NCBI RefSeq assembly: GCF_013393325.1
Contig: NZ_QJRC01000091.1
Span: forward strand, 1-64,000
Length of the DNA: 64,000 bases
Direction: 5' to 3'
DNA from: Pseudomonas hunanensis
Lineage (GTDB): Bacteria > Pseudomonadota > Gammaproteobacteria > Pseudomonadales > Pseudomonadaceae
Positions 5,455-17,011 of this stretch are shown here, one piece after another; position 1 is the first letter of the stretch, and every line of letters begins with the position of its first letter. The translations under genes and the position numbers were made by a program. The notes beneath the pieces are model-generated. The model made no database searches, was not told the origin of the DNA, and saw only the letters and a program-made list of their open reading frames with translations.

Positions 5455-6396
5455 GTGTCCAAGATGATGGTCTTTACGGGGAACGCTAACCCCGATCTGG
5501 CTCGGCGTGTCGTACGTCAGCTGCATATCCCTCTCGGTGACGTCTCTGTCGGTAAATTCTCCGACGGCGAGATCAGCACTGAGATCAATGAAAATGTTCG
5601 CGGTAAAGACGTTTTCATTATTCAGCCGACCTGTGCCCCGACCAACGATAATCTGATGGAACTGGTAGTGATGGCCGACGCCTTCCGCCGCTCCTCAGCC
5701 TCCCGAATCACCGCCGTGATTCCTTACTTCGGATATGCCCGCCAGGACCGCCGTCCGCGTTCGGCACGTGTAGCCATCAGCGCCAAAGTCGTCGCTGACA
5801 TGCTCACTGTCGTAGGTATCGACCGTGTACTCACCGTCGACCTGCACGCTGACCAGATCCAAGGCTTCTTCGATATCCCCGTCGACAACATCTACGGCTC
5901 GCCCGTACTGGTCGACGACATCGAAGACCAGCGTTTCGAGAACCTGATGATCGTCTCCCCGGACATCGGTGGTGTCGTGCGCGCACGCGCTGTCGCCAAG
6001 TCCCTGGGCGTCGACCTGGGTATCATCGACAAACGCCGCGAAAAGGCTAACCACTCCGAGGTTATGCACATCATCGGCGACGTCGAAGGGCGCACTTGCA
6101 TCCTGGTAGACGACATGGTCGACACCGCCGGCACCCTGTGCCACGCGGCCAAAGCCCTGAAAGAGCACGGCGCTGCCAAGGTTTACGCCTACTGCACGCA
6201 CCCTGTCCTGTCGGGCCGCGCGATCGAGAACATCGAGAAGTCGGTACTGGACGAGCTGGTGGTGACCAACACCGTACCGCTGTCCGCCGCTGCTCAAGCC
6301 TGTGACCGTATCCGCCAGCTGGATATCGCACCGGTTGTCGCTGAAGCGGTACGCCGCATCAGCAACGAAGAATCGATCAGCGCGATGTTCCGCTAA
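5455..6396 (+). CDS. prs: Ribose-phosphate pyrophosphokinase (PRPP synthetase)
   Basis: A 313-residue enzyme making phosphoribosyl pyrophosphate from ribose 5-phosphate and ATP, the precursor of purines, pyrimidines, histidine, tryptophan and NAD. The start is the GTG giving (M)[19 protein letters not shown]; the longer frame runs back into the tRNA. The PRPP-binding loop [11 protein letters not shown] lies at about residues 217-227, and the RQDRRPR flexible loop at about 100. Length matches the family. A strong intrinsic terminator follows. Confidence 0.96.
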
Positions 6397-6420
6397 GCGG
6401 GACACGTGTTGATGTGAAGC

Positions 6421-6456
6421 GCCCCGCCCCAACCTGTGTTGGGGCGGGGCTTTTTT
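6421..6456 (+). terminator. Rho-independent terminator after prs
   Basis: A 13-base stem GCCCCGCCCCAAC pairs perfectly with GTTGGGGCGGGGC around the loop CTGT and is followed by six T. It separates prs from rplY. Confidence 0.9.
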
Positions 6457-6516
6457 GCCATCCCCGTCTGGCGCTGGTCGCAAACGCCATTCGGGAGGCT
6501 ATTTTGGAGAAACAAA

Positions 6517-7110
6517 ATGACTGACTTCATCCTGAACGCCCAAGCGCGTACTGACCTGGGGAAAGGTGCGAGCCGCCGCCTGCGTCACGCCGCCAGCATC
6601 CCTGCCGTTGTTTACGGTGGCGATAAAGAAGCCCAATCCCTGACCATCGTGGCCAAGGAAATCGCCAAACTGTTCGAAAACGAAGCTGCCTACAGCCACG
6701 TTATCGAACTGAACGTCGACGGCGCCAAGCAGAACGTCGTGGTCAAGGCCATGCAGCGCCACCCAGCCAAAGGCTTCATCATGCACGCCGACTTCGTTCG
6801 CGTCGTTGCTGGCCAGAAGCTGACTGCCAAGGTTCCGGTTCACTTCATCGGTGAAGAAGCCCCGGTCAAGAAAGGCGGCGAGATCTCGCACGTTGTTTCC
6901 GAGATCGAAGTTTCCTGCGAAGCCAAAGACCTGCCTGAGTTCATCGAAGTTGACCTGGCCAACGCCGAAGTCGGCACCATCATCCACCTGTCGGACCTGA
7001 AAGCTCCGAAAGGCGTAGAGTTCGTCGCTCTGGCCCACGGTGATGACAAAGCTGTTGCCAACGTTCACGCTCCACGCGTTGCTCCAGAAGCAGAAGGCGC
7101 TGCCGAGTAA
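6517..7110 (+). CDS. rplY: 50S ribosomal protein L25 (general stress protein Ctc type)
   Basis: A 197-residue protein of the long L25/TL5/Ctc class: an N-terminal 5S-rRNA-binding domain (residues 1-95, beginning [20 protein letters not shown]) plus a C-terminal TL5-like beta domain. The ATG follows the ribosome site TTTTGGAGAAACAAA; the longer frame starts inside the prs terminator and is rejected. pth follows after 79 bases containing a strong hairpin. Confidence 0.95.
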
Positions 7111-7134
7111 TCCACTCGCACGCCGGCGTTGATC

Positions 7135-7163
7135 GGGTTACAGTGCCGCGCGCACTGTAACCC
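7135..7163 (+). repeat. Perfect 11-bp hairpin between rplY and pth
   Basis: GGGTTACAGTG (7135-7145) pairs exactly with CACTGTAACCC (7153-7163) across a CCGCGCG loop. No T-tract follows, so it is more likely an RNA processing or stability element, or a weak attenuator, than a full terminator. Confidence 0.55.
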
Positions 7164-7189
7164 ACCAACTCCAAGGAAGAGCCCCTGAC

Positions 7190-7774
7190 GTGACCGCCAT
7201 CCAGTTGATCGTTGGCCTGGGTAACCCCGGCCCCGAATACGAACAGACCCGGCATAACGCAGGGGCTCTTTTCGTTGAACGCATTGCCAGCGCCCAGCGT
7301 GTTTCGCTGACCGCTGACAAAAAATATTTCGGCCTGACGGCTAAATTCAGCCATCAGGGCAACGACGTTCGTTTGTTGATCCCCACCACCTACATGAACC
7401 GCAGCGGCCAGTCCGTGGCGGCCTTGGCCAATTTCTTCCGCATCAAGCCGGAAGCGATCCTGGTGGCACACGACGAACTCGACCTGCCCCCAGGCGTTGC
7501 CAAGCTCAAGCGCGGCGGCGGCCATGGTGGGCACAACGGCCTGCGCGACATCATCGCGCAGCTCGGTAACCAGAACGACTTCCACCGCCTGCGGCTTGGC
7601 ATCGGCCACCCAGGTGACGCCAAACTGGTATCCAACTTCGTCCTGGGCCGCGCGCCGCGCGCCGAGCAGGAGAAGCTCGACGCCAGCATCGATTTTGCCC
7701 TCGGCGTGCTGCCGGACGTGCTTGCCGGCGATTTCGCCAAGGCGATGCGCGAGCTGCACAGCCAGAAGGCCTGA
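7190..7774 (+). CDS. pth: Peptidyl-tRNA hydrolase
   Basis: A 194-residue enzyme that frees tRNA from peptidyl-tRNA dropped by ribosomes. It starts at GTG behind an AAGGAAGAG ribosome site. The substrate Asn is in [17 protein letters not shown] and the catalytic His in TRHNAG at about residue 23; the conserved HDELDLPPG is near residue 95, and [12 protein letters not shown] follows. rplY-pth-ychF is the typical order; ychF starts 24 bases later. Confidence 0.96.
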
Positions 7775-7798
7775 TTTCCTTTAGAGAGGGGAATACCC

Positions 7799-8899
7799 AT
7801 GGGTTTCAATTGCGGCATCGTCGGCCTGCCCAACGTCGGCAAGTCCACCCTGTTCAACGCCCTGACCAAGTCTGGCATCGCGGCGGAGAACTTCCCTTTC
7901 TGCACCATCGAGCCAAACAGCGGCATCGTGCCAATGCCCGACGCTCGTTTGGCTGCGCTGGCTGAAATCGTCAAGCCAAACCGCATCCTGCCGACCACCA
8001 TGGAATTCGTCGACATCGCCGGCCTGGTTGCCGGTGCGTCGAAAGGCGAAGGCCTGGGCAACAAGTTCCTCGCCAACATCCGCGAGACCGACGCCATTGC
8101 CCACGTGGTGCGCTGCTTCGAAGACGAGAACGTGATCCACGTTTCCAACAGCGTCGACCCCAAGCGTGACATCGAGATCATCGACCTCGAACTGATCTTC
8201 GCCGACCTCGACAGCTGCGAAAAGCAGCTGCAGAAAGTAGCCCGCAACGCCAAAGGCGGCGACAAGGAAGCCTTGGCGCAGAAGGCAATACTGGAAAAGC
8301 TGATCCCGCACTTCACCGAAGGCAAGCCTGCACGCAGCCTGATGAAGCACATGGCTGACGACGAAAAAGCTGTCATTCGTGGCTTCCACCTGCTGACCAG
8401 CAAGCCGGTGATGTACATCGCCAACGTGGCCGAAGACGGCTTCGACAACAACCCGCACCTGGACGTGGTCAAGGCCATCGCCGAGGAAGAAGGCGCGGTA
8501 GTGGTGCCGGTGTGCAACAAGATCGAGGCAGAAATCGCCGAGCTGGAAGATGGTGAAGAGAAGGACATGTTCCTCGAGGCCCTGGGCCTGGAAGAGCCTG
8601 GCCTGAACCGCGTGATCCGCGCCGGTTACGAGCTGCTGAACCTGCAGACCTACTTCACTGCCGGCGTGCAGGAAGTACGTGCCTGGACCGTACGCGTAGG
8701 TGCCACCGCACCACAAGCCGCAGGCGTGATCCACACCGACTTCGAGAAAGGCTTCATCCGCGCTGAAGTGGTGGCCTATGATGACTTCATCCAGTTCAAG
8801 GGTGAAAGCGGTGCCAAGGAAGCCGGTAAATGGCGTTTGGAAGGCAAGGACTACATCGTCAAAGACGGTGACGTGATGCACTTCCGCTTTAACGTCTGA
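7799..8899 (+). CDS. ychF: Redox-regulated ATPase YchF (Obg-like, OLA1 family)
   Basis: A 366-residue P-loop protein that prefers ATP and binds ribosomes. G1 is [14 protein letters not shown] at the N-terminus, G3 is DIAGLV at about residue 74 and the specificity motif is NKIEAE near 240. The C-terminal TGS domain includes [17 protein letters not shown]. Length is standard. It closes the conserved block; an intrinsic terminator follows and then the accessory DNA begins. Confidence 0.96.
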
Positions 8900-8940
8900 T
8901 GGGCACCGTGGAATTCCACGCTACTTGAAAGACTTCAGAC

Positions 8941-8972
8941 CCCCCGTGATCGCCAGGCGATACGGGGGTTTT
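8941..8972 (+). terminator. Terminator after ychF
   Basis: CCCCCGT-G-ATCGCC pairs with GGCGAT-ACGGGGG, with one bulged G and a single-base loop position, followed by TTTT. It ends the ychF transcript before the convergent dynamin-like operon. Confidence 0.8.
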
Positions 8973-9043
8973 GTATTCAAGGGCCACCATTTTCATCTGT
9001 AACCCCGGCCAAGAAACAGCTTCGTATCTTAGAAACCAACTCG

Positions 9044-10432
9044 CTACGGTCCCAATACGAGATACAACAAACCACCAAGATTGGCCGCTGCAAGCGCCGC
9101 ACAACCATACGCCACCCATTTAAGGTGCTTTTGGCCATTGACCACCTGAGCCTTGAGCGCCAATGCCTGCGCTTGATATGTCTGGTGGTGCGCATGGGCG
9201 GCCGAAAGTGCCTGATGTTGCTCCCCTAGCCGCTCATGCAGGTTGTTTGCCTGAGTCTGCCATAGGTCCTGCAATTGCTGCCCCAGTGCTGAAACCTCCT
9301 TGTGCACGGCCGAGCGCAAGTGATCGGCCGTTAGCAGGGTGAGTTTTTCCAATCGACTCACGCTTTCCTTGTCCAACTCACGCAGCTGTTCCAACAAACT
9401 GCCAAGGCTACGACCCAAACGCTGCTGTGCGCTGCCATGCACTGTAAGCCAGTGCTTCTGCATTTGCTGTTGATGAGCATCAAGCCTGCTGGCCGTAACC
9501 TCGCTTAGTGTCCGTATCGTTGCATGCAGCTCGATCTGGGCCTGTTGTTGCGCCATGAACAACGACGCCAACCGCTGCTGTTGACCCTCGAACTTGCCGG
9601 CCGCAGCCTCACCCAGCATGCACATCGTTTCATGTAGCTCAGCTTGGCCCTGCTGCTGCGCCGAGATCAGCGAAGCCAGCTGCTGGGCAAGTTGACTGAC
9701 ATCCTCCTGATTCGTTTGAGCCCAGCGCTGAAGCTGGTCTTCGGCATTTACCCGGCGCCCCTCTGCGGTTTCCAGCCCTTGGGCCAGCACCTCAAGCTCA
9801 GTTTGAATACTGATGGTTTGATGGCTGACCGCCTGCCATTGCGATTGCTGCTGCTGTTGGTACTGATCCAGCTTACTGTCTGCAGCGGCCCCCATGGCTT
9901 GGACTGCGTCTACCGCTTGAGTATGTGCTTGCTGGTGCCATTGCGCGAAGGACGCCAGATTCTGAGTTAGCTGGGCAACGCTCTGCAAACTGGCATCGCC
10001 CAACCGTTGCGCTTGCGCCTGCAAGGCAACCTGGTGTTCCCCAACTCCACCGATCTGCGCTGACAACCCCACAACACCGGTTTGAATATCCTGGGATTGC
10101 TGACTGTGCTGCCCGAGGATCTCCAGCAATTGTACATTGCGCGACTGCGCAAGCTCGTTTGCATCCTGCTGGGCAAACTCCAGCGTTTGCAGTTGCTCTT
10201 CAAGCGGGAGACTGCTCTCTGGGTAATGCTTGTTGATGAAACGTGTGACTTTGCCTGTTTGAGCTTCCAGTCGGTCCTGGCGCTCGAGGATACTGCGCTC
10301 CAAGGGGTAAATGTTTTCTTCGAGCAATGCGCTCACTTCAGTTTTCAGCGGCGGTACCAGAATATCGACCAGTAACTGAGTCAACTCCTGCTTGGCAGCA
10401 GCGCGTTCGCCCTTAACGTCCTGGTCGATCAT
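9044..10432 (-). CDS. Glutamine-rich coiled-coil protein with C-terminal membrane anchor (third gene of dynamin-like operon)
   Basis: A 462-residue protein of unknown function. Almost all of it is predicted coiled coil, very rich in Gln and Ala. Residues 252-287 and 288-323 are tandem 36-residue repeats (LASLxxAQQQxQxELHxT..., 18 of 36 identical by hand), and a weaker copy begins at residue 159 (LASFAQWHQQ). A single hydrophobic helix at about residues 439-460 ends the protein, so it looks tail-anchored with its bulk in the cytoplasm. Its ATG overlaps the stop of the upstream GTPase gene in ATGA, implying coupled synthesis. A tether or scaffold for the two P-loop proteins is inferred only from context. 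Confidence 0.7.
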   Translation of the reverse strand: MIDQDVKGERAAAKQELTQLLVDILVPPLKTEVSALLEENIYPLERSILERQDRLEAQTGKVTRFINKHYPESSLPLEEQLQTLEFAQQDANELAQSRNVQLLEILGQHSQQSQDIQTGVVGLSAQIGGVGEHQVALQAQAQRLGDASLQSVAQLTQNLASFAQWHQQAHTQAVDAVQAMGAAADSKLDQYQQQQQSQWQAVSHQTISIQTELEVLAQGLETAEGRRVNAEDQLQRWAQTNQEDVSQLAQQLASLISAQQQGQAELHETMCMLGEAAAGKFEGQQQRLASLFMAQQQAQIELHATIRTLSEVTASRLDAHQQQMQKHWLTVHGSAQQRLGRSLGSLLEQLRELDKESVSRLEKLTLLTADHLRSAVHKEVSALGQQLQDLWQTQANNLHERLGEQHQALSAAHAHHQTYQAQALALKAQVVNGQKHLKWVAYGCAALAAANLGGLLYLVLGP

Positions 10433-12372
10433 TGAGCATCCTTCCCGGAATAGAATTTTTCGGCTTCACTGATAAGCAGATGGGCTTGCATGAGCCCAAG
10501 AAACTTGTCCGTGGCGCACTGCCCCTTATCAAGTTCGTCTGTGCATGCCTGTAACGCCCGCGACAGGCTCTGATCAACACGCTGCTCAAAATGCTGGGCC
10601 ATCTTTTTCGAGCCTTCCATGCGGGCGATGTTCACGCTCAATTGGTCGCTCAAGGCCTGCAGTCCACGCAGGTGCCGGGCGTGCTTATCAAGGGCTTCCT
10701 GCACCGCGCGCAACTGCCGATCGACTTCTGGCAAGGCGCGTTGTTGTTCAGAAGCTTGATTTTTCACTGCCTCGATGAAGCACATGTGCGCCAACTTAAT
10801 ACAACGGCCTCTGCTCACAGCAACGACATGTTCGAGCATACCCATGTCTGTTTCGTAGCTGGACGACCAGAAATAGCTTTCCAGCGTGTATTGGTCGAGG
10901 TGATAGTCCAACGGATGAAAATCGCTTTCGTCAAAAACCACAGGACGCACTGCGCGCATGAGCACCTTGCAGTGGCCCTGTAGTTCTTCACCAAAACTAC
11001 TAAAAAGCAGTGTTTGAAAGGCCTCTATCCAGCTTTCGAGCTGGTGCTTGAGGCATTTTTTCGCACAACGAAGCAGTTCCTGTACCGCAGGTACCGTTTG
11101 CTCTCCCCGCGCAATGACATGTGTGGGGAAAAGCCCTTCGAGAATTGGCCCGATGTCGATACGCAGCAGTCCTTCGAGCATATGCGTCCACTGCTCCGTC
11201 AATTGCCGCTCTGCCAGCAACTCGTCCCTGCGCACCTGCAGCACTCTGGCTACATCATCATCTGACTGCAACGGATAAAGCGCTTTTTGCCGTGACTCGA
11301 ATGCCTCCAGGCTTGCGAGCCGCTCACGTCTTTGCTCTCGATAACTGTCCTCGAACGCCGCAATCTGCCCGGTCACCACCTGGTCGAGCTGAAAGGCAGC
11401 GAACACGCGGGACAATGGCCCGCTGGAGCGTTTGATATCCTCGATCAGCTGTCGCCGAAAGGTATCGACAACAGGGCATACCAGGGCGAAGTACGCGGGG
11501 TCTGCCTCAGCCATCTCACGCGCCGAATCCCCAAGCTCCATCACAAAGAGGTTGCTTTGAAAATGCTCGGGGATGGTCAATTCGAGTGTCTGTATTTCTT
11601 CGCTCATTGCCGAGCGCAGTGCTGTTACATCCATCGGGGCGGCCAACATGCGCTTGCGCACGCTGCTCAGAGAAAAGCTCGAGGTAATGACCACCCGAAA
11701 GCGCACCGGCTGATGCACCCAATTAGCCAGCTCTTCTATCTGCAAGTTTTCTGGCCGCAAGAACCCAAGGCTGCTGGCCTGGGTTACGAGCAGCACCAAA
11801 TCGGCCACCGTGACAAAGGTTCGAGCGAGTGTTGCAACCAGCTCACGCTCGTGGGCATTGCGCGCGTCCAGTCCGGGCAGGTCGATGAGTTTGACATCGA
11901 CGTCCAGAGCATTCTCGCTCGCCAGCGGGAAAAACCGAGCAGGGATGAGAATGTCGGTTAGATCGATGCCAGTGCGCTGCCCTTGCTCCACCGCTCGGCG
12001 GGTATCAGCAAGTGCCCGGGTAGCCGCCTGCCTGTCCAGCGGACCACTCTGGCCGATGTACCAGTGATCGTCGCTTGAGCGCCCGTAGCGCAACGGCATG
12101 ATCGTCGCTGATTTGCCCAGCGTCTGGCCACCCCGCAGCACCTCGGCAATTTCCTCGCGGGTGTCCGAGACGAGGCCGAGCAGGTCAAGGATCAAGGTCG
12201 TCTTGCCCACTTGAGTGGCGCCATACACCACCACGGTCACTTGCTCGGAACGCCGGAGCTGGCCACTGACCTCCGGGGCCAGCTCATGGACAAAACGGTC
12301 GTAGGCTTGCAGCGCCCAGTCATGGCGCTGACGATAACGCTCAGACCACGAACGAGGCTTGGGCACGATCAA
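10429..12372 (-). CDS. Dynamin-like GTPase (second gene of operon)
   Basis: A 647-residue large P-loop protein. Walker A/G1 GATQVGKT is at residues 51-58, a G2-like threonine occurs in KSATIMP near residue 90 and G3 DLPG is at 164-167. Where N/TKxD (G4) is expected, after strand RFRVVIT, the sequence is TSSFS, so the base-specificity motif is missing or changed. The C-terminal two thirds is helical and coiled-coil-like. This is the architecture of bacterial dynamin-like or CrfC/YjdA-type GTPases, but no specific family is recognised. The open frame begins at a TTG inside the upstream gene (32-base overlap); a GTG two codons later is an alternative start. Confidence 0.7.
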   Translation of the reverse strand: MIVPKPRSWSERYRQRHDWALQAYDRFVHELAPEVSGQLRRSEQVTVVVYGATQVGKTTLILDLLGLVSDTREEIAEVLRGGQTLGKSATIMPLRYGRSSDDHWYIGQSGPLDRQAATRALADTRRAVEQGQRTGIDLTDILIPARFFPLASENALDVDVKLIDLPGLDARNAHERELVATLARTFVTVADLVLLVTQASSLGFLRPENLQIEELANWVHQPVRFRVVITSSFSLSSVRKRMLAAPMDVTALRSAMSEEIQTLELTIPEHFQSNLFVMELGDSAREMAEADPAYFALVCPVVDTFRRQLIEDIKRSSGPLSRVFAAFQLDQVVTGQIAAFEDSYREQRRERLASLEAFESRQKALYPLQSDDDVARVLQVRRDELLAERQLTEQWTHMLEGLLRIDIGPILEGLFPTHVIARGEQTVPAVQELLRCAKKCLKHQLESWIEAFQTLLFSSFGEELQGHCKVLMRAVRPVVFDESDFHPLDYHLDQYTLESYFWSSSYETDMGMLEHVVAVSRGRCIKLAHMCFIEAVKNQASEQQRALPEVDRQLRAVQEALDKHARHLRGLQALSDQLSVNIARMEGSKKMAQHFEQRVDQSLSRALQACTDELDKGQCATDKFLGLMQAHLLISEAEKFYSGKDAQ

Positions 12373-14449
12373 TCTCGGCAGTCAGATGGCGTCGCGATGC
12401 ATTCAAGGCGCGCATCACCCTTGCCAGTGCATCACGCTCGGAAAACTGATTGGCATCAATGCCGTAGGCCACACTGAGATTATGCTCGATCCGCTCCTCG
12501 ATCTTGTTCATGAGCTCGTCGTAGTGCTCAAGGCTGCTTTCCACCAGGTGATCCCTGAAGCGCTCCAGGCTGGCCACGATGAAGTTGCGTTTGGCGACAT
12601 TGTATTGGTGGACCGAACTGGCAGCCTTGTAACCAATGAAGCCCAGCCCCATGAGCCCGGTTGCCGCCATGGACAGTGTCGCTCCCAACCCCGTGGCAGT
12701 ACCGCCAGCCAGTACCGGAAGGACATCCAGGCTGCCATCGATGGCCAAGTCCACTGCGGTTATTGCGAGCAACGCACGCCCTACCTGCTTGGCTCCCTGG
12801 GTAAAGCCTGGCAACGAAGCACGAATGTCCTTGGCGAGGGCATCGGGGTCATACTTGACCAGCTGGGCAGTATCGACCACCTGCCGCTGGAACAACGCCA
12901 TACCTTGGCTCATGCGTAGATACTCCATGGTCAGTGCCGGCAGAAGCTTCAATGCAGTATCGAACTGCCGAGTACGAACCGTGGCGGGGTCGAGGTGGTT
13001 CTCGCTGATAGTCTGGTTCAACAACAAGCAGACACTTTTTTGCAAGTCAGGCGCAGCCGGGAGATTGCACTCAGGAACCACCACAGTGCCGTCAGCCTTC
13101 TCGTAACCCAGGTACCGAGCGGGCTGTTGCTGCTGACGGTGTTCCAGCAGCAGGGCAGGATTTTCATCCAGGGCAACCTCCAGCCCCAGTTTGAAGTGAT
13201 CGTCAGCCACATGCGTCAGCGCCAGGTAAATCGCATGCACCGGGGTTTGCTCGCCTTGCTGCTCCCAATGCTTGTGAATACGGCTGATGTAGCGCTGCTC
13301 GGGTTCGCTGGTCTTGAGCGAGAGGAAATCGACGATATTTCTACCCACATTGGACCACCCCTCCTCCTCCTCGCCAAACGCATGTGTAGCACTGCCTATC
13401 GCACACCGCGTGTACTGGTCGACATGTTGAAGAAGGCGTTTTTTATACTTCACTCGGTAGGCATCCGAGGAACGTCGGAACTGATCCAGAACCTTCTTGA
13501 CCAGCCCCTCGCTGGCACTGGCAGAAGCTGCTGCATTGTCGATCAGGCCATCCAGGAAACCCACCGCGACTTCCAGCTCCAGCTCTAGAACGGCCTGCAG
13601 ATCTGTCAGCCGTTGCTGATAGACGTCCAGCCCCGGCTCGGCGTATTGGCCTAACGCTTGGAGAAGTTGTGGTATCCAGAGCGCCTTGTATTCCTCACCA
13701 CGGCCAACGCAGACAACACGATCTGCCTGGTCGGCCGGCACCTGACAGTTCAACGCCGCAGAGACACGCAATTCTTCACGTGTTTCCTGGGACTGGTTCT
13801 CCGTGCGCCCAATGGCAATGATCGGGTGCCGGCCGGGTAACGCCTGTTCCAGCATTTCCACCAATACATCTTGAGTGGACTGGGTAGCCAGAGCATTGGC
13901 GTTGGTCACCAAGATACTGCCCGTGGCATGCTTGAGCGTATCGCGCATTTCCTGCTGCCACAGGCTGTTGGTCCGGTTGAGTTTTTCGTAGCCAGGTAAC
14001 AGCAAGAAACCCGCGCGCTCGCCGAAGTGACGCTTAGGCACATACAGGCGCAGCAACATGAAACGCTCGCCTGCCGCGAAGCTGCGCAGTTCATTGAACA
14101 GGGTTTGCTGGTCTATCTCTGTTTCCTGACCCAGCTCGTCCACACCGCAGGCATAGGGTGTTTTACAGTCGCGCTCAAGCACGAAGAGCGGCCGACATTC
14201 GCCACGCCCAGGGTTGTCTGGCAGCCAGTCCTCCAGATCGTACAACTCGCGCAAAAGATGCGTCTTGCCCGCGCCCTGAGTTCCGCCAATGCACACAAAA
14301 AAGCTGGAGTGCATTTCACGGATCACCAACAACTTGCGCAGCACCGCACGAAGCTTTTCTCGCTCCTGAGTACTTCGGTCAAAGTGTACGGCGATATCGA
14401 GCGCCTGCCTCAAAGCCTGTGTGACGGGATCGATGAGCGAGGCGTACAT
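12341..14449 (-). CDS. Large P-loop protein, dynamin/GTPase-like (first gene of operon)
   Basis: A 702-residue protein. The start (MYASLIDPVTQALRQ) was chosen for its AAGGAG site 7 bases upstream; the longer frame lacks one. The P-loop GGTQGAGKTHLL is at about residues 55-66. The expected DxPG is replaced by LLPGY near 149-153, and IGRTEN near 212 sits where N/TKxD might be, so nucleotide hydrolysis may be altered. Residues about 557-610 are long, hydrophobic and Gly/Ala-rich and could enter a membrane, as paddle regions of dynamin-like proteins do. Long helices flank this. It leads the three-gene operon. Function unknown. Confidence 0.65.
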   Translation of the reverse strand: MYASLIDPVTQALRQALDIAVHFDRSTQEREKLRAVLRKLLVIREMHSSFFVCIGGTQGAGKTHLLRELYDLEDWLPDNPGRGECRPLFVLERDCKTPYACGVDELGQETEIDQQTLFNELRSFAAGERFMLLRLYVPKRHFGERAGFLLLPGYEKLNRTNSLWQQEMRDTLKHATGSILVTNANALATQSTQDVLVEMLEQALPGRHPIIAIGRTENQSQETREELRVSAALNCQVPADQADRVVCVGRGEEYKALWIPQLLQALGQYAEPGLDVYQQRLTDLQAVLELELEVAVGFLDGLIDNAAASASASEGLVKKVLDQFRRSSDAYRVKYKKRLLQHVDQYTRCAIGSATHAFGEEEEGWSNVGRNIVDFLSLKTSEPEQRYISRIHKHWEQQGEQTPVHAIYLALTHVADDHFKLGLEVALDENPALLLEHRQQQQPARYLGYEKADGTVVVPECNLPAAPDLQKSVCLLLNQTISENHLDPATVRTRQFDTALKLLPALTMEYLRMSQGMALFQRQVVDTAQLVKYDPDALAKDIRASLPGFTQGAKQVGRALLAITAVDLAIDGSLDVLPVLAGGTATGLGATLSMAATGLMGLGFIGYKAASSVHQYNVAKRNFIVASLERFRDHLVESSLEHYDELMNKIEERIEHNLSVAYGIDANQFSERDALARVMRALNASRRHLTAEIDRAQASFVV

Positions 14450-14496
14450 GATGAAACTCCTTGTTCTTTGACAATGCCTGGCGGGACGGGCACCGG

Positions 14497-14513
14497 GATA
14501 CACAAGGTGTATC
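14497..14513. promoter_or_regulatory. Possible operator upstream of the dynamin-like operon
   Basis: GATACAC and GTGTATC form a perfect 7-base inverted repeat with a 3-base spacer, about 48 bases before the start of the 702-residue gene and inside its only plausible promoter region (14450-14608). The size and symmetry fit a dimeric regulator site. No regulator gene is adjacent. Confidence 0.35.
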
Positions 14514-14608
14514 GGCATCAATCGATAGAAGTTTACAGGGACGAAGGTCGATGCATGTCTGCGCCCCCGGATGGGCTGGGTGATCGCAGGGCAATCACCC
14601 TTAGAACG

Positions 14609-17011
14609 TCAGAAATCCCCACGCAAGGTCAGCATGTAGCTACGCGGCGCGCCGTAAGTAGTGCCGCGGGTCCAGTAACCGGTCGAGTCGAAATACTTGC
14701 GGTCCAGCAGGTTCTCCACGTCCACGCCCACCGTCCAGTGCTGGTCGAGCTTGTACGCCGCCCGTGCATCGAACACCGCCCGGCCGCTGTTGCTCACGCC
14801 ATTGTAAGCGTCGTAGTAATGGGACTGGGCCGACACACCACCGCCGACACTGAGGCGGTTCCACTCACCCGGCAGGGTGTAGTTGGTGTTCACCCGCAGC
14901 AGATGCTTGGGCGTTTGTGCCGAGATCGGCCCGCCAGTCTCCGACTGCGTGGTGTTGAAGGTATAACCCGCCGCCACCTGCAAGCCCGGCAGCAACTCAC
15001 CGCTGGCCTCTGCCTCGAAGCCCTTGCTGCGGCTGATGCCATCGCTGTTCACGTAACAACGGCCTGCAACGTCTGTGGGACAGTTGCCATCATTGGCATA
15101 GTCGCGAGCGGCGACGTCCTCCTGTTCGATATAGAACAGCGCAAAGGACAGGTTCAGACGCTTGTCGAACAACTCGCCCTTGATGCCGGTTTCGTAGTTG
15201 GAACCGATAGCGGGGTCAAGCATCTTGCCACCCGCACTGCGGTAACTGGCCTGGGGCATGAAGATATCGGCATAGCTGGCGTACAGAGACCAGTTGTTGT
15301 TCAGGTCGTAGATGGCACCAACGAAAGGCGTGAACTCGTGCTTCTGTTCATTGGTGCTTTTCAGCCCGCCACTCCAGGCCTCGGTCTTGTACCAACTCAG
15401 GCGCCCGCCCAGTACCAGGCTGAGGTCCTCGGTCATGTGCAGGCGGGCATTGAGGTAGGTGCCGTAACGGGTATCGAAGGTGTCTTCCTTGTAGTCCCAT
15501 CCCTGTCGCGAAGGTTCTGGGACAATGCTGTGGTCCGGGTCGAACACATTGAGCGGGATGGGGCTGTCGAGCTTTACCGTGGCGTCCTTGTCATTCATCT
15601 TGCGCCGGGACCAGTTGGCCCCCAGCGACAGCTGATGGCTCAGGCCAAACGCTTCGAACTCGCCGTCCAGGTGGCCGTCCACCGCGTTGGCGGTGACATC
15701 GAACTTGTGAAAGCTGGTGTCGTTGATCATCGGCCCAGTGGGGCTGCCGTACTCCAGCGTGTCCTCTGCGCTCCATTCGATGGCGCTGCGGTTGTAACTG
15801 CTTTCGGAGTGCGACAGCGCCAGCTTGCCGCTCCAGTTGTCGGTGAAACGGTGATTGAGGTCGGCGAACACTTCGTCGGTGCGGGTCTGCAGCGTGGCCC
15901 AGTCCTGGCCCAGGAAGGTGGAACGCTTGAGGTGCGGGTTGCTGCCATCCGGGTTGTTCGGCAAGCCCAGCACGCTGTAGCCGTCAATGCGCGAAGTCTG
16001 CCGGCGCAAACCCAAAGCAACGGTAGTGGCGTCGCTCAGGTCGCCTTCGACTATGCCGTACAGCAACGGCCGCTTGGACTTGCTGACATCGGTGAAGTAA
16101 CCACGGTCCTCGTAGGACGCCACCACGCGGCCGCGCAGAGAACCTTGCGGGTTCAGCCTGCCACTGGCGTCCAGGTCCAGCCGGTAATTGTCCCAGGAGC
16201 CGGCACGGGTGGTCACGGAGAAACGTGGCTCCGACGTCGGGCGCTTACGCACCAGGTTGACCGCACCGCCTGGGTTGCCCGCCCCTACCAACAGGCCCGA
16301 GGCGCCTCGCAGTACCTCGACACGGTCGAACACCGCCATGTCGGGGATCATCCAGCCGGTGTAGGCGTAGGCCTGCCCGGCCACGCCGTCGACCATGTAA
16401 CTGTCGTCGGTGATGTCGAAACCCCGGGAGCTGAAGTGATGGTTGCCGTAGCCACGGTTGGCGCGGGTAATGCCTGTGGTCTGGGCCATCACCTGGTCCA
16501 GTGAGACCAGGTTCTTGTCGTCCATCAGTTTGCGCGTAACCACGGTCACCGACTGCGGTGTACGGCGCAGCGACTGAGGGGTCTTGCCGATCGTCACGGC
16601 GCCGGTGGTGTACGAGCCAGAACCCTCGGTGGTTTCGCCCAGCCCCACGCTGTTGATGTTGGTAGCACCCAGTTCCAGCGCGCCCTTGGCGTCCACCGTC
16701 GGCACCACACTGAAGGTGCCGCTGCCAGTGACGATCAGTTGCAGGCCGCTGCCCACCAGCGCAAGCTGCACGGCTTGCAAGGCACTCATCTCACCCTGGA
16801 TCGCGGGGGCCTGCTTGCCGACGACCAGAGCCGGGTCCAGCGACATCACCTGCCCACCTTGGCGGGCGATGGTGTTGAGGGTTTGCGCCAGGCTGGCGGC
16901 CGGCAGGTCGAAACGCTGCAGCTGTTGCTGCGCAGATCCTTGCGCCTGGACGACGGCCGTTGGTGCGGTTGCCAGCGCGATGGCAAGGGCGAGGGGCCAA
17001 GGTTTGAACAC
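14609..17011 (-). CDS. TonB-dependent siderophore receptor with signalling (STN) domain
   Basis: An 800-residue outer-membrane receptor. It starts at GTG behind AGGAG (7-base spacing) with a signal peptide ending near AVVQAQG. Residues about 30-105 form the STN/secretin signalling domain (LPAASLAQTLNTIARQGG), which contacts a FecR partner in the periplasm. The plug domain follows (LRRTPQSVTVVTRKLMDDKN), then the 22-strand barrel, ending in the aromatic GDF. This is the ferric-siderophore (FpvA/FoxA-like) class; the ligand cannot be told. Immediately upstream on the same strand are fecR and fecI, making a complete cell-surface signalling set. Confidence 0.9.
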   Translation of the reverse strand: MFKPWPLALAIALATAPTAVVQAQGSAQQQLQRFDLPAASLAQTLNTIARQGGQVMSLDPALVVGKQAPAIQGEMSALQAVQLALVGSGLQLIVTGSGTFSVVPTVDAKGALELGATNINSVGLGETTEGSGSYTTGAVTIGKTPQSLRRTPQSVTVVTRKLMDDKNLVSLDQVMAQTTGITRANRGYGNHHFSSRGFDITDDSYMVDGVAGQAYAYTGWMIPDMAVFDRVEVLRGASGLLVGAGNPGGAVNLVRKRPTSEPRFSVTTRAGSWDNYRLDLDASGRLNPQGSLRGRVVASYEDRGYFTDVSKSKRPLLYGIVEGDLSDATTVALGLRRQTSRIDGYSVLGLPNNPDGSNPHLKRSTFLGQDWATLQTRTDEVFADLNHRFTDNWSGKLALSHSESSYNRSAIEWSAEDTLEYGSPTGPMINDTSFHKFDVTANAVDGHLDGEFEAFGLSHQLSLGANWSRRKMNDKDATVKLDSPIPLNVFDPDHSIVPEPSRQGWDYKEDTFDTRYGTYLNARLHMTEDLSLVLGGRLSWYKTEAWSGGLKSTNEQKHEFTPFVGAIYDLNNNWSLYASYADIFMPQASYRSAGGKMLDPAIGSNYETGIKGELFDKRLNLSFALFYIEQEDVAARDYANDGNCPTDVAGRCYVNSDGISRSKGFEAEASGELLPGLQVAAGYTFNTTQSETGGPISAQTPKHLLRVNTNYTLPGEWNRLSVGGGVSAQSHYYDAYNGVSNSGRAVFDARAAYKLDQHWTVGVDVENLLDRKYFDSTGYWTRGTTYGAPRSYMLTLRGDF

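Follow-up and report, generated by a model that had tools for sequence, protein, structure and literature searches.

Positions 9044-14449 of a 64,000-nucleotide stretch of Pseudomonas hunanensis DNA (assembly GCF_013393325.1, contig NZ_QJRC01000091.1, positions 1 to 64,000; hereafter the window) hold an operon of three overlapping minus-strand genes, numbered 1 to 3 from the upstream end. We predict that this trio encodes a mobile, three-component, membrane-recruited dynamin-like machine, most likely directed against phages, and put the probability of this reading at about one half. The anatomy of the trio and its behavior as a single unit are much firmer, and are well supported by the comparisons below. 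A preliminary description of this DNA, made without database searches, had given product lengths of 702, 647 and 462 residues and overlaps of 32 and 4 bases; these values are confirmed, with a refinement of the gene 2 start.

Anatomy of the three proteins

Homologues of genes 1 and 2 were aligned in 57 rows each (alignments A4 and A5), leaving out 13 broken, truncated or other-collection loci and the near-duplicates L033, L041 and L062, and AlphaFold2 models of both proteins were built from 57-row alignments. Gene 1 (12341..14449, minus strand) starts with an ATG at 14449 and encodes 702 residues, modeled with a predicted local distance difference test score (pLDDT) of 79.6. Its P-loop, GTQGAGKT (residues 56-63, within GGTQGAGKT; 14261..14284), is intact, with G56, G61 and K62 invariant in all 57 rows. 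At the G3 position, where GTPases have DxxG, it reads LLPG (residues 150-153; 13991..14002), and L150-L151-P152-G153 is found in 57 of 57 rows; since leucine replaces the aspartate in every aligned copy, nucleotide hydrolysis by the usual route is not expected. A putative G4-like position reads GRTE (residues 214-217; 13799..13810), with K in 39, T in 44 and E in 47 of the 57 homologues at residues 215-217. Further along the chain is a hydrophobic segment (residues 555-615; 12605..12787), placed like a paddle between trunk helices and containing a conserved D-x3-DG motif (D567 in 53, D571 in 54 and G572 in 52 of the 57 rows); residues 565-615 of the model are of low confidence. Fifty-six of the 57 rows have a 19-residue hydrophobic span of at least 1.2 on the C-terminal side of residue 300, and the best such span in the window's own copy reaches 1.64, at residue 559.

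No Pfam family matches gene 1 above its cut-off, and a sequence-only search of solved structures (E <= 1) returned one row at chance level. Its model is best matched in VIA by mitofusin 1 (5yew; Z 20.5 over 325 residues, root-mean-square deviation (rmsd) 10.6) and Fzo1 (9kff; Z 19.8 over 208 residues, rmsd 3.2), with IniA at Z 18.6, and the best Foldseek matches are cyanobacterial BDLP, IniA and the Campylobacter pair discussed below. Era, an unrelated GTPase, reaches a VIA Z of 15.3, so a match over the G domain alone is not specific for gene 1.

Gene 2 (10429..12372, minus strand; pLDDT 89.7) encodes 647 residues from a TTG at 12372 or 645 residues from a GTG at 12366. The GTG is the likelier start because it aligns with the ATG start of the closest relative (L012, 64% identical), and the overlap with gene 1 is 32 bases from the TTG or 26 from the GTG. 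The P-loop GATQVGKT (residues 51-58; 12199..12222) has G51 and T53-T58 in all 56 rows with letters there, and T90 (12103..12105), a putative G2-type threonine, is likewise kept in 56 of 56. The G3 motif, DLPG (residues 164-167; 11872..11883), is present as DxPG in every row, with D164, P166 and G167 in 57 of 57. The G4 position reads TSSF (residues 230-233; 11674..11685); the threonine is mostly kept (T in 52 and S in 5 of 57), the next position is Y in 38 and residue 232 is S in 32, and there is no (N/T)KxD motif at this position. Two Pfam families match above their cut-offs—Dynamin_N (30.5 bits, cut-off 27) and MMR_HSR1 (24.8 bits, cut-off 21.9)—and a sequence-only search of solved structures found nothing. 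The VIA rows shown are dynamin-superfamily chains, EHD included, with mitofusin 1 (5yew) at Z 15.1 (325 residues, rmsd 7.5) and dynamin-family rows down to Z 12.2, values that are little above the tool's warning level for long-helix models; IniA, OPA1 and MxA are the best Foldseek matches.

Both models have the fold of the dynamin superfamily—a P-loop G domain followed by a long helical neck and trunk—with Pfam Dynamin_N above cut-off for gene 2 only. Normalized by query length, global template-modeling scores reach only about 0.2-0.3, low values that would be expected with the domains set at different angles. Neither chain contains the full GTPase motif set (G1, the G2 threonine, G3 DxxG and G4 (N/T)KxD). 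On these predictions genes 1 and 2 are dynamin-like by fold and not canonical GTPases; the earlier label of a GTPase machine is too simple, because neither protein alone carries the complete set of motifs. A profile comparison aligns gene 1 with gene 2 over 147 columns (probability 89, E 2.3e-6), with L150 of gene 1 falling on D164 of gene 2, and the two are likely to be paralogues. From the asymmetry of their motifs we infer that they act as one composite machine, taking as precedent the Campylobacter pair Cj-DLP1 and Cj-DLP2, each of which is stated to be inactive unless both are present (PMC6104087).

Gene 3 (9044..10432, minus strand) overlaps gene 2 by four bases (ATGA) and encodes a 462-residue coiled-coil rod with one C-terminal membrane helix, the tail anchor, at about residues 438-459 (9056..9121). 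A 36-residue unit is duplicated within the rod (residues 250-285 and 286-321; 9470..9685), with a self-comparison score of 75 against a maximum of 46 in 20 shuffles, from which it follows that the length of the rod can change by duplication; no DNA-level repeat of at least 24 bases was found in the gene. The homologues range from 144 to 462 residues, the window's copy being the longest, with a mean pairwise identity of 0.16 over the 53 rows of alignment A6 (from which L044 and L048 were also removed by hand, and in which L051 and L073 are missing because no gene 3 was picked for them). In all 53 rows the best hydrophobic span lies no more than 15 residues from the C terminus and is the only one; these rows were chosen for a downstream hydrophobic span, and the fair tail-anchor count is therefore the unselected one, 62 of 66 loci. 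Mean net charge is +1.8 before the helix and +0.4 after it, which suggests a cytoplasmic rod. Tail-anchored receptors, MFF and Fis1, recruit soluble Drp1 to mitochondria, and the likeness of gene 3 to these proteins depends on its putative receptor role. The features given in the preliminary description—both P-loops, the DLPG of gene 2, the hydrophobic stretch of gene 1 and the single terminal helix of gene 3—are all present, and its view of two dynamin-like proteins accompanied by a tail-anchored coiled-coil protein is supported.

Recurrence and mobility of the trio

Genome contigs were scanned with an alignment of nine gene 2 proteins; the same scan with P0002 alone as query found no relative. 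Sixty-six gene 2 loci were obtained, of which 49 are assigned by record title to Pseudomonadota, 13 to Bacillota, 2 to Bacteroidota and 1 each to Cloacimonadota and Acidobacteriota, or about five phyla (Exiguobacterium alone was looked up, and metagenome bins are among the records). All 66 loci have gene 1 directly upstream of gene 2, in whole form, cut off by a contig end or broken, and mostly overlapping it on the longest open reading frames (ORFs); the pairing is therefore not due to chance. A tail-anchored gene 3 ORF lies downstream in 62 of the 66 by a simple rule (one terminal hydrophobic helix) and in three more on inspection: in L051, L058 and L080 gene 3 is present by profile, but is interrupted, split, or outside the rule as gene 2 is broken. 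The contig of the remaining locus, L087, stops inside gene 2. Pairwise distances over 53 loci are correlated between genes 1 and 2 (r = 0.964), 1 and 3 (0.78) and 2 and 3 (0.82), with none of 2000 permutations as high; common descent of neighboring genes alone gives such correlations, so these values show co-inheritance and not contact.

The trio is thinly spread. Gene 2 was found in 7 of 398 Pseudomonas genomes, the source genome included, and gene 1 in the same seven, to which a 75-position fragment and a 24-position match can be added. Across 274 genomes of the class, a search with gene 1 yielded the window's own copy and, beyond it, only two matches, of 25 and 38 positions. No fixed fourth gene was found, the commonest neighbor family (a short-chain dehydrogenase, by eye) occurring in six of the loci clustered. 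The trio recurs as a unit and is patchy between strains, it lies near defence genes in some loci, and homologues occurring singly and scattered were not seen. One candidate fusion of genes 1 and 2 was dropped. At L005 6294-12168, on a plasmid of Sphingomonas sp. NIC1, a 1261-residue ORF joins a helicase-like N-terminal part (by eye) to a gene 2 part; the ORF has no gene 1 match, its gene 2 part has no P-loop, and it looks like a rearrangement. It stands behind a phospholipase D family gene and is followed by a gene 3 relative.

In the window, the trio alone fills a variable slot (8898..14608) between a ychF-like gene (7799-8899, plus strand) and a TonB-receptor-like gene (14609-17011, minus strand), both named by eye. 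A second genome of the species, G289, is 99.5% identical over 6379-8897, that is, to the end of the ychF-like gene, and its homology restarts at 14609, the end of the TonB-receptor-like gene, at about 100% identity (compared to 24000), which supports the earlier proposal of an insertion between conserved genes. The gap between these genes is a cargo slot that differs between the two genomes, with 5.7 kb in the window and 21.5 kb of other DNA in G289. In a related species (G271) a trio adjoins the same ychF-like gene; its gene 1 and gene 2 proteins are 82% and 64% identical to those of the window, as compared with 96% for the ychF-like protein and 88% for the flanking DNA, and its gene 3 protein has 51% identity across residues 1-203 and 35% across 316-460. 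By these comparisons the slot is variable, and the trio is either fast-evolving or exchanged. The trio has a G+C content of 0.55-0.59, lower than the 0.61-0.66 of 15-45 kb, but because 5-7 kb and 58-64 kb are also at 0.58-0.60 the difference is weak evidence. Before the ATG of gene 1, in the intergenic stretch 14450..14608, is an AAGGAG ribosome site. A sigma-70-like promoter was looked for within 8850-14750 and not found, and the 11 terminator-like sites there (4.9 expected) are all intragenic.

Relatives of gene 2 were found on 12 plasmid records (one rearranged) and of gene 1 on 11. One IMG/VR contig has the trio as well, preceded by short genes that it has in common with an Enterobacter plasmid copy and with two further loci. 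Both traits looked for in an antiphage system, a patchy distribution and presence on mobile DNA, are observed. Eighteen of 5426 complete E. coli genomes have matching DNA: five have the whole trio, at 97-99% DNA identity to the Enterobacter plasmid copy; one has 1550 bases of gene 1; ten keep no more than the final 359 bases; and two no more than the initial 61. The trio has apparently been lost in several E. coli. One E. coli copy has AbiTii and HamA genes 1-8 kb away (the helicase next to HamA is annotated as frameshifted), and another has HNH and restriction endonuclease genes at 6-8 kb. The 359-base remnant (L141, 7841-8359, and nine more E. coli records) was viewed in one genome, where the scar is abutted by a truncated upstream gene; upstream there are also two integrase genes and a partial gene, and about 4.5 kb downstream an ABC-three-component gene.

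Flanking defence genes and known systems

Flanking genes were compared with PADLOC in 19 loci; of the 20 at the start, the pair L080/L136 was left out, as were two short proteins from other loci. At a threshold of 1e-20, 149 families matched the 131 flanking proteins, as compared with 8 in 133 control proteins taken from paired stretches of the same contigs. The sources of the 149 include two C5 methylases, two type I specificity proteins and three WYL regulators; the control matches are to DinG-, RtcR- and IetA-type models, and the 25 of 148 Pfam families listed in a tally of the controls are mostly metabolic, with two phage structural families. Single-protein scans of 30 of the 131 place matches in 7 of the 19 loci: Shango SngA/SngC (L057), type I specificity with a weak HEC-05 (L028), the DRT RmuC (L059), C5 methylases (L063 and L077), an ankyrin candidate (L054) and a WYL regulator (L026). 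Because these 30 were picked by hand according to size (with limits of 1e-30 or 1e-20, the controls being scanned as a set only), 7 of 19 is a lower bound. The flanking genes support a defence role, short of proof.

The trio matches no named system in PADLOC 2.0.0, Pfam, NCBIfam or the product names of the public records viewed, which agrees with the preliminary description, where no named system with this trio was recognized; the product names are 'sugar kinase', 'tektin family protein', 'dynamin family protein', 'coiled-coil domain-containing protein' and 'hypothetical protein'. No description of the trio was found in the literature, the coverage of which fell short of most subscription papers and gives weak evidence of novelty, and the available part of PMC9519451 mentions neither dynamin nor GTPase.

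The LeoA-LeoBC pair of E. coli H10407, which we take to be the system called Eleos, also consists of adjacent genes for two dynamin-like proteins, and the PADLOC defence library contains models of both. Gene 2 matches LeoBC (2.3e-12, 44.8 bits) and LeoA (5.8e-7, 27 bits), and this is what favors a divergent Eleos system; gene 1 matches neither LeoA (E <= 1) nor LeoBC in PADLOC. The LeoBC model (PDLC03841), however, has a match in every genome scanned, 149 of 149 Pseudomonas and 14 of 14 controls. What it picks up in most of those listed is a common GTPase frame of about 490-545 codons (probably Der, from its size and P-loop) at about 51-57 bits, so that a score of 44.8 bits has no discriminating value; its top near-full-length matches reach 350-573 bits, and partial or split ones 197-290. 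Loose cut-offs with this model would give false LeoBC annotations. In 20 LeoBC-match loci (short ones, six being the common GTPase) the gene 1 profile found no ORF of at least 150 codons at E <= 10, and the gene 2 profile scored ORFs at 12.7 bits at most. With profiles that fail to cross-detect, and with neither a LeoBC-type protein at a discriminating score nor a LeoA-type partner, membership of Eleos was rejected and a divergent form of it is very improbable. LeoABC, offered earlier as the paired-dynamin comparison, holds as a distant analogue and not as the same family. LeoB keeps a DXXG that gene 1 does not have, and the part of the report available describes no tail-anchored rod and hence no counterpart of gene 3, although LeoC is described as having a terminal membrane anchor (PMC4159319). 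The same source reports that leoA, leoB or leoAB knockouts cut vesicle release by roughly half, so a vesicle-release or secretion machine of this kind might be proposed for the trio; given the failure of cross-detection, and with no neighbor family common to the loci pointing to secretion, we consider it quite unlikely. A second dynamin-like gene is present in the source genome (G000, contig C59:4649-6214, L101), with a 549-codon frame that scores 128 bits with the LeoBC model and is directly adjoined by another ORF with a P-loop motif.

Other relatives are also distinct. Cj-DLP1/Cj-DLP2 of Campylobacter jejuni (PDB 5owv, 5oxf), like the trio, form a heterotypic dynamin-like pair (Foldseek about 1e-9 to gene 1), but structural-alignment identity is about 10-14% and no tail-anchored partner is described in the part of the source available. 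IniA (6j72), of the mycobacterial iniBAC operon, is among the closest solved structures to both genes 1 and 2; iniBAC is a drug-stress-induced operon of other make-up and is not known to include a tail-anchored rod. Mitofusin and Fzo1, the best VIA rows (5yew for both genes, 9kff for gene 1), are eukaryotic, with identities of 13-16%. DynA of B. subtilis brings two dynamin units together and is reported to delay lysis after phage infection and to take part in membrane surveillance against antibiotics. To our knowledge it is one fused protein with no anchored partner, and is not a mobile trio. The trio differs from the known paired bacterial dynamin-like proteins in the conserved loss of the G3 aspartate in one partner and in its tail-anchored third component.

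Proposed function and rival explanations

In the mechanism that we propose, gene 1 would supply a hydrophobic paddle and a nucleotide-binding P-loop, without the usual hydrolysis, and gene 2 the G2 and G3 hydrolysis residues, without a base-specificity motif and mostly without a paddle, as judged from the conserved residues. The two would probably work only as a heteromer, as with Cj-DLP1/2, and gene 3 would probably hold the heteromer at the inner membrane, by analogy with MFF/Fis1 and Drp1. Perturbation of the membrane by phage attack would lead the complex to assemble there, where it might delay lysis by sealing or bracing the membrane, as reported for DynA, or else remodel the membrane lethally. 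A more ambitious version makes the trio a widespread asymmetric dynamin immune machine whose two obligate partners divide catalysis and base recognition between them: gene 1 would give the paddle and a KTE-type base-recognition loop, gene 2 would give hydrolysis, and gene 3 would be a dedicated tail-anchored receptor, with a rod of 144-462 residues, acting as a bacterial counterpart of Drp1-MFF used against phages. We hold this version only tentatively and think it rather unlikely in full.

Several observations weigh against an antiphage machine of this kind. The heteromer, from sequence, and the receptor role of gene 3, from analogy, are steps that we infer, and since 7 of the 57 gene 2 rows have, C-terminal of residue 360, a hydrophobic span of 1.2 or more (1.6 or more in two of them), the paddle division between genes 1 and 2 is not absolute; in the window's gene 2 the span reaches at most 1.09 beyond residue 330. 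The 149 families of the flank test are redundant and derive from few proteins, making the defence signal moderate, and 12 of the 19 loci have no match among the proteins scanned singly (few per locus). The G289 slot, read in part, carries metabolic genes (by eye), the E. coli S43 and R2 copies adjoin sugar-metabolism genes, and a tblastn search with gene 2 found no match in 50,697 phage records. On two plasmids (L142 and L143, one from Klebsiella and one from E. coli) the trio lies between a heat-resistance locus—kefB-GI, psiE-GI, a zinc metalloprotease and a serine protease—and tellurium-resistance (ter) genes. Genes of ter, PP2C and vWA types are on one side of these copies, and transposase genes on both.

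These plasmid copies argue for the main rival, in which the trio would protect the inner membrane, by repair or bracing, from heat, solvents, tellurite or membrane-active compounds, with phages not the main selective agent. The report of DynA in surveillance against antibiotics and the fact that the closest folds (mitofusin, Fzo1, IniA and BDLP) belong to membrane-acting proteins favor it too, but protection from envelope stress fits less well with a trio that is rare, patchy and apparently lost in several E. coli, or with the Shango, restriction-modification, DRT and WYL genes in the flanks of 7 of the 19 loci when the controls have only DinG-, RtcR- and IetA-type matches; we regard it as the less probable of the two. 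Carriage on plasmids, proximity to transposases and the membrane anchor could also be accounted for if the trio aided the persistence of a plasmid or island, for example by blocking rival conjugative elements at the membrane. With no neighbor family in more than six of the loci clustered, and with the window's copy alone in a small slot of a chromosomal-looking region, such a maintenance or exclusion role is unlikely.

Bacterial dynamin-like proteins are described as usually paired (PMC6104087), and the reason for this pairing is not settled. As gene 1 lacks the hydrolysis residue and gene 2 lacks base recognition, a division of labor between the partners can be tested directly here, and the tail-anchored gene 3 is a candidate bacterial dynamin receptor. 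The presence of the whole trio in five E. coli genomes suggests that it may work in this host, and phage tests of the trio in laboratory strains are within reach.

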